Origin: Spirochaetes bacterium ADurb.Bin133 | GTDB taxonomy: Bacteria > Spirochaetota > GWE2-31-10 > MWDO01 | Length of the DNA stretch: 64,000 nt | Assembly: GCA_002070605.1 (NCBI GenBank) | Contig: MWDO01000006.1 | Span: forward strand, 1 to 64,000 | Direction of reading: 5' to 3' | In this document: one piece after another, positions 20,289 to 20,558 of the stretch | How the letters are laid out: each line of letters starts with the position of its first letter | Numbering within the stretch: the first letter of the stretch is position 1 | The notes under the pieces: model-generated | Seen by the model: the letters and a program-made list of their open reading frames with translations, nothing else | The model's database searches: none | Told to the model about the DNA's origin: nothing | Translations under genes and position numbers: made by a program

Positions 20289-20430
20289 TTTATTAATTTT
20301 TTAAAATAAAAAAATATTCTTGACAATTGATATGATATCAATTATCATTTTTTTAACAACGGTAAAAGAAGGTTCATTATGATAGAAAAATCGCTATCTA
20401 TCTATCTATCTATCTATCTATCTATCTATC
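20289..20430 (+). promoter_or_regulatory. Promoter with palindromic spacer and (CTAT)9 repeat, copy 1
   Basis: TTGACA (20320-20325) and TATCAT (20343-20348) flank a 17-base spacer, ATTGATATGATATCAAT, which is a perfect palindrome about its central G and so a probable operator. A start ATG at 20379 leads into nine CTAT units (20394-20430). The same block occurs at 53473-53624. Region 20092-20288 holds only AT-rich DNA and the inverted-repeat arm. Confidence 0.7.
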
Positions 20431-20558
20431 TTCTACTAAGAGCGCATCTTTTTAAAACATTTGATATGTTTTTAGTTCCTTATCATAAATCAATAAGGAA
20501 TAAGCGCTTCGAGTCTCAGATATATCGTAATTACCGGCAAAGGCTGGGCTTGTGTTAA
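20379..20558 (+). CDS. Leader ORF running through the tetranucleotide repeat (frame open)
   Basis: This 59-codon ORF begins MIEKS, passes through three LSIY repeats encoded by (CTAT)n, continues LLRAHLFKTFDMFLVPYHK, and ends 25 nt before the chemoreceptor ATG. Because the unit is four bases, gain or loss of one unit changes the frame and stops translation early. GGTTC before the ATG is a poor RBS. The product resembles no known protein. The likely role is translational coupling or attenuation of the downstream gene, inferred from the matching arrangement at 53568. Confidence 0.45.
   Translation: MIEKSLSIYLSIYLSIYLLLRAHLFKTFDMFLVPYHKSIRNKRFESQIYRNYRQRLGLC

Follow-up and report, generated by a model that had tools for sequence, protein, structure and literature searches.

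Repeat-bearing leader reading frames as putative phase-variable gates upstream of chemoreceptor and GTPase genes in Spirochaetota

The classic form of repeat-driven phase variation, known from the mod and lic genes of H. influenzae and from Neisseria, places the repeat within an open reading frame (ORF), where slippage changes the reading frame. Slippage would shift the frame in the same way at the spirochaete loci described here, and classic cases are found both in the source genome and in Brachyspira, but at our two principal loci, A and B, the repeat is part of a distinct ORF that precedes the coding sequence and in its open phase stops 25 nt before the gene. In pil1 and pil3 of S. gallolyticus, tandem repeats phase-vary a leader peptide (PMC3894217). 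The spirochaete leaders resemble pil1 and pil3 in having, behind a promoter and a Shine-Dalgarno (SD) sequence, a leader ORF that contains repeats whose unit length is not a multiple of 3, in being lengthened by an out-of-frame unit change in some phases only, so that the phase is unit number modulo 3, and in occupying the 5′ portion of the downstream operon's transcript. They differ in that the pil systems are Gram-positive, with the pentamer GCAGA and a strong terminator hairpin, whereas the spirochaete repeats are tetranucleotides, heptanucleotides, and poly-C, and the leaders reach or overlap the gene start, are many per genome, and have targets that include chemoreceptors and a GTPase operon. 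Because no terminator was found at B, where the one stable hairpin lacks a U-run, and A has one weak match, we do not class these leaders in the pil1 type. Two other systems place variable repeats upstream of genes. The AGAT repeat of M. catarrhalis uspA2, which is the CTAT complement in another register, also lies upstream of its gene and is reported to act on mRNA level, with no leader ORF described in the part of that source used here (PMC7302503). In H. pylori, the leader of the chemoreceptor gene tlpB likewise varies in repeat length, but the repeat is a homopolymer in an untranslated leader that is read by the small RNA RepG with graded effect (PMC8295292); the CTAT repeat is within a putatively translated ORF with an SD. 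No report of a repeat-switched leader peptide in spirochaetes was found in the open-access literature searched; since short leader ORFs usually go unannotated and surveys look inside genes or promoters, devices of this sort can readily escape notice. The novelty lies in their breadth, with three repeat classes present in a single genome, the layout recurring in Brachyspira, frames that extend to the gene start, and targets such as chemoreceptors.

The window, a 64,000-nt stretch of contig MWDO01000006.1 from Spirochaetes bacterium ADurb.Bin133 (an uncultured spirochaete whose AroA shares 88% identity with its counterpart in Spirochaetes bacterium Go_SlDig_bin_318), contains two CTAT arrays, A and B, which are its strongest unit-4 tandem arrays and far exceed what chance would give; all features of the two leaders and their genes are on the forward strand. 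An earlier note had described a promoter block, leader start, and CTAT run common to both loci, and its coordinates proved right: from promoter through SD to leader start, the two differ at 7 positions in 83 nt, and ATGATAGAAAAATCG at the start of the leader ORF is identical, the peptide beginning MIEKS-LSIY-LSIY. At locus A, the promoter (20320..20348, TTGACA-N17-TATCAT, 11/12 matches in the promoter scan) precedes an SD and the leader ATG at 20379, and with nine units in the array ((CTAT)9+C, 20394..20430) the leader ORF is open for 59 codons (20379..20558). A frame check bore out the claim that its stop codon, ending at 20558, lies 25 nt before the ATG at 20584 of the proposed gated gene, a methyl-accepting chemotaxis protein of 468 aa with HAMP and MCPsignal domains (20584..21990).

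Locus B has the promoter TTGACA-N17-TATTAT (53508..53536), a leader ATG at 53568, and an array of 10 units ((CTAT)10+C, 53583..53623) that leaves the leader in a closed phase, ending soon after the repeat (53568..53633). The prediction that one added unit would open it to 53758 also held: with 11 units, as with 8 or 14, the frame runs over 53568..53758, leaving 25 nt to the ATG at 53784 of a dynamin-like GTPase of 757 aa (53784..56057; Dynamin_N below cut-off), the proposed gated gene. The remainder of this putative GTPase operon (56077..59863) comprises a DO-GTPase2-like protein (56077-57159), a weak TerB match (57208-57630), and ORFs at 57627-58841 and 58838-59863. Genes A and B each have a good SD of their own, 25 nt past the open-phase leader stop. 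Among 393 Spirochaetota genomes, a single relative of the first GTPase was found. The region 53784-62244 holds dynamin-like and double-GTPase-like proteins with the weak TerB, and 61120-62244 strongly matches the defence candidate PDC-S01.

Further CTAT arrays of at least five units occur in the genome at two contig ends only. The end of contig C61 carries the promoter, ATGATAGAAAAATCG, and 18 units, and the start of contig C36 (reverse strand) carries 18 units and a homologous 3′ part; by parsimony, joining the contig ends, these would be one locus, C, of no fewer than 18 units. All three CTAT copies begin their leader ORF with the same 15 nt. The open phase of C (n = 1 mod 3) exceeds 104 codons and stops 16 nt before a small ORF that looks truncated and whose start was chosen by the analyst. 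With open phases at n = 0, 2, and 1 mod 3 for A, B, and C, no phase is common to all three. (CTAT)8 is present in only 4 of 393 Spirochaetota genomes: the source genome, two single-contig genomes of one genus, and one (G020) in which the array lies behind rplS and was rejected as a further example, there being no leader. The CTAT leader was not found in relatives of the source genome, nor was the leader start with CTAT pattern in the contigs of other sampled genomes or in viral contigs.

In the 1.99 Mb of the genome that were scanned, the same layout occurs with other repeats, in three heptanucleotide leaders and one poly-C13 leader. The heptanucleotide leaders have a common SD and ATG(T/C)TCGC start, and the two with upstream sequence also share the promoter TTGACA-N17-TAGAAT. 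The leader on contig C1 (AGATACA) is open now and stops 15 nt before an FGE-sulfatase-domain gene; that on C2 (AGATACA) is closed, with an open phase that overlaps a CsgG-like gene by 68 nt; that on C4 (AGAGACA) is closed, with an open phase stopping 28 nt before a gene of 972 aa. The unit is uniform within each copy. The poly-C13 leader, on contig C3, is closed; in its open phase, the end of the frame overlaps the ATG of a dCache chemoreceptor gene (ATGGATAA). Classic in-ORF tracts are present too, one of them a C13 tract at the start of another chemoreceptor gene. The surrounding region (C3:93000-110000) is a chemoreceptor gene cluster in which two genes share an identical start that carries a C13 tract, placed in a leader ORF in one case and in-ORF in the other.

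Parallel arrangements were detected in two Brachyspira genomes, one taken as the B. murdochii type strain and the other as a congener. Both have a promoter, an ATG, (CCGTTAT)11, and then a CTAT array upstream of a gene with a cNMP-binding domain, and the array differs across species, 12 units in the congener versus 20 in B. murdochii. With 11+12 units, the congener leader is in its open phase, its TGA overlapping the gene ATG (ATGA); with 11+20, the B. murdochii leader is closed, and two more tetramers would carry the frame past the gene start. In a second B. murdochii leader, (AGTCTAC)13, the open phase ends at the following gene, with stop and start overlapping as TAATG. The genome of this non-pathogenic species holds at least two such leaders, and the device is testable there. 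The Brachyspira leader sequences are unrelated to those of the source genome apart from the CTAT units; the layout therefore recurs without being plainly inherited. In Brachyspira L275:8666-8771 and L285:486-622, 15 and 20 heptanucleotide copies directly follow the ATG in related genes that resemble members of the cNMP-binding family, candidates for classic in-ORF phase variation.

In every leader, one of three frames reaches to within 30 nt of the gene start or past it, and the remaining two terminate a short way past the array. The open-frame stop lies at -25, -25, -16, -15, +68, -28, and +8 nt relative to the gene start for A, B, C, the heptanucleotide leaders on C1, C2, and C4, and the poly-C leader, respectively. 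When the tail between array and gene was shuffled with dinucleotides kept, the probability that some frame came within 30 nt of the gene was 0.09 (A), 0.03 (B), 0.002 (C), 0.19, 0.12, and 0.08 (heptanucleotide), and 0.34 (poly-C). Copies within a leader family are related and not independent; Fisher's combined P was 0.0003 over all seven leaders, 0.0008 with one leader per unrelated tail, and 0.014 without C. The long open frames by themselves are only moderately unlikely by chance. For two short Brachyspira tails the test is not informative (P of 0.54 and 0.93), and the overlaps at the congener and the second B. murdochii leader are exact. Three of the nine leaders with known state are open now, where free slippage would give about one third. 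The arrays are pure while their flanks differ by 8-16%, which together with the uniform heptanucleotide units points to ongoing turnover; no variation in unit number was seen within the species, sampled as one assembly.

We propose that these leaders undergo slipped-strand phase variation and that their translation gates the downstream gene, through coupling or antitermination, and we give this reading a probability of about 0.73 from sequence comparison. A sigma-70-type promoter and an SD would start a short ORF holding (CTAT)n, and replication slippage, by gaining or losing 4-nt units, would decide in which of the three frames the sequence past the array is read. In the open frame, a ribosome would translate up to the next gene start; in the closed frames, it would stop within ~25 nt of the array and leave ~130-150 nt of untranslated RNA. 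Full translation of the leader would then raise downstream expression, whether of a gene or of an operon. The simplest route would be termination-reinitiation coupling; alternatively, the ribosome would cover RNA hairpins and prevent premature termination. The leader peptide itself would not be the product. Slippage in living cells, its effect on expression, and the gating step that acts are what we infer from this anatomy. The earlier note had attributed to slippage a switch in translational coupling. Its phase variation is well supported by comparison, with three CTAT, three heptanucleotide, and one poly-C copy and the Brachyspira leaders; its coupling probably fits best where stop and start overlap exactly, as in ATGA of the congener, TAATG of B. 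murdochii, and ATGGATAA of the poly-C leader. The open-phase stop at A and B comes only within 25 nt of a start that has its own good SD, and an attenuation or polarity mechanism may act there instead. RNA folding predicts that translating the leader would raise the unpaired state of the start from 0.46 to 0.53 and from 0.66 to 0.74; given this small change and the SD 25 nt past the stop, coupling at A and B need not be strong, and SD sequestration was rejected as the sole mechanism.

The strongest competitor, doubtful but deserving serious consideration, is attenuation as in S. gallolyticus pil1, where the mechanism is proven (PMC3894217): translation of a long leader would melt a stem-loop transcription terminator, with no role for translational coupling. 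A weak terminator-like stem at A (20534-20547) lies just before the open-phase stop, a stable hairpin at B (53714..53749, ends approximate) lies inside the open-phase tail, and in the heptanucleotide leaders a UA-rich stretch is preceded by a retained AACCGU-loop-ACGGUU stem, so ribosome-driven antitermination may operate. The stem at A has only five pairs, however, the terminator scan found no intrinsic terminator-like site at B, and the Brachyspira tails, in which no such hairpin was detected, have exact stop/start overlap instead. Coupling stands somewhat ahead of attenuation.

That the array might be a length-variable spacer in an untranslated leader, acting through RNA structure or through binding of a protein or small RNA with the ORF incidental, appears unlikely. 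Precedents exist in the AGAT repeats that change uspA2 mRNA level (PMC7302503), and in the G-repeat that sets small RNA control of tlpB (PMC8295292), but in every copy the SD, the ATG, and the first codons before the array are conserved, and the frame-dependent anatomy extends over three repeat classes and Brachyspira. We consider it similarly improbable that the arrays are neutral microsatellites within a dispersed repeat element, devoid of regulatory effect. The 3′ part of A (20446..20549), which includes a hairpin along with the weak terminator-like stem, and that of C are copies of such a repeat, which occurs elsewhere without a leader, and the frame probability for A alone is weak; nevertheless, in a census covering 1.99 of the 2.99 Mb of the genome, long non-triplet simple repeats were nearly all in leaders or at gene starts and otherwise nearly absent, and the arrangement is found again with other repeats and in another, distant spirochaete family. 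A phase-variable functional leader peptide, for which a good SD and start and open frames ranging from 59 to over 104 codons could speak, is very improbable and was rejected, because the tails of A, B, the heptanucleotide leaders, and Brachyspira are unrelated and the codon differences between tails A and C and between tails H1 and H2 are all nonsynonymous (14/14), so the tails are not conserved as protein and the reach of the ribosome is what matters. These 14 base changes all fall on codon positions 1 or 2 and none on position 3, an outcome with a chance of ~0.3% if positions are equal.

We lean, by a small margin over even odds, toward a broader version of the gating proposal, in which Spirochaetota would hold a genome-wide class of repeat-bearing leader ORFs (tetra-, hepta-, and mononucleotide), built repeatedly as translation-gated on/off modules before chemoreceptors, surface proteins, cNMP-binding proteins, and a GTPase operon, the upstream ORF varying and not the gene itself. 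If true, the spirochaete would randomly switch chemoreceptors, and thus what the cell swims toward, together with an operon of unknown GTPases.

The surroundings of the leaders have further features. The -35/-10 spacer of promoter A is filled by a 17-bp palindrome, ATTGATATGATATCAAT, that resembles a repressor operator and has one change at B; this palindrome class occurs at only five places in the genome, three of them the CTAT leaders and the other two apparently inside genes. The dispersed repeat is ~90 nt long (TTGAWATRTTTTTAG...GCTCAGATATATYGTAG), has promoter-like sequence at its beginning, and has copies in the window, on contigs C36, C69, and C5, and in genome G001. An inverted copy (20179..20263, reverse strand, 86% to the repeat consensus query) lies upstream of promoter A, so that inverted arms (20179-20263 and 20446-20549) flank promoter and leader; an invertible promoter was nonetheless rejected, the arms being only ~73% alike over their length, and no inverted repeat pair was seen around the leader at B or C. 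The copy on C69 comes after an XerA-like recombinase gene, and an integron-like site was likewise rejected, as the recombinase falls below both cut-offs (NF040815, integrase_gron) and the repeat is also present away from it. On the opposite strand of the heptanucleotide leaders, a perfect promoter abuts the array (TTGACAATTAGGCGGAAATCCTTATAAT on C2, L234:14380-14440), with its hexamers kept in all three copies, and it could drive an antisense RNA starting inside the repeat.
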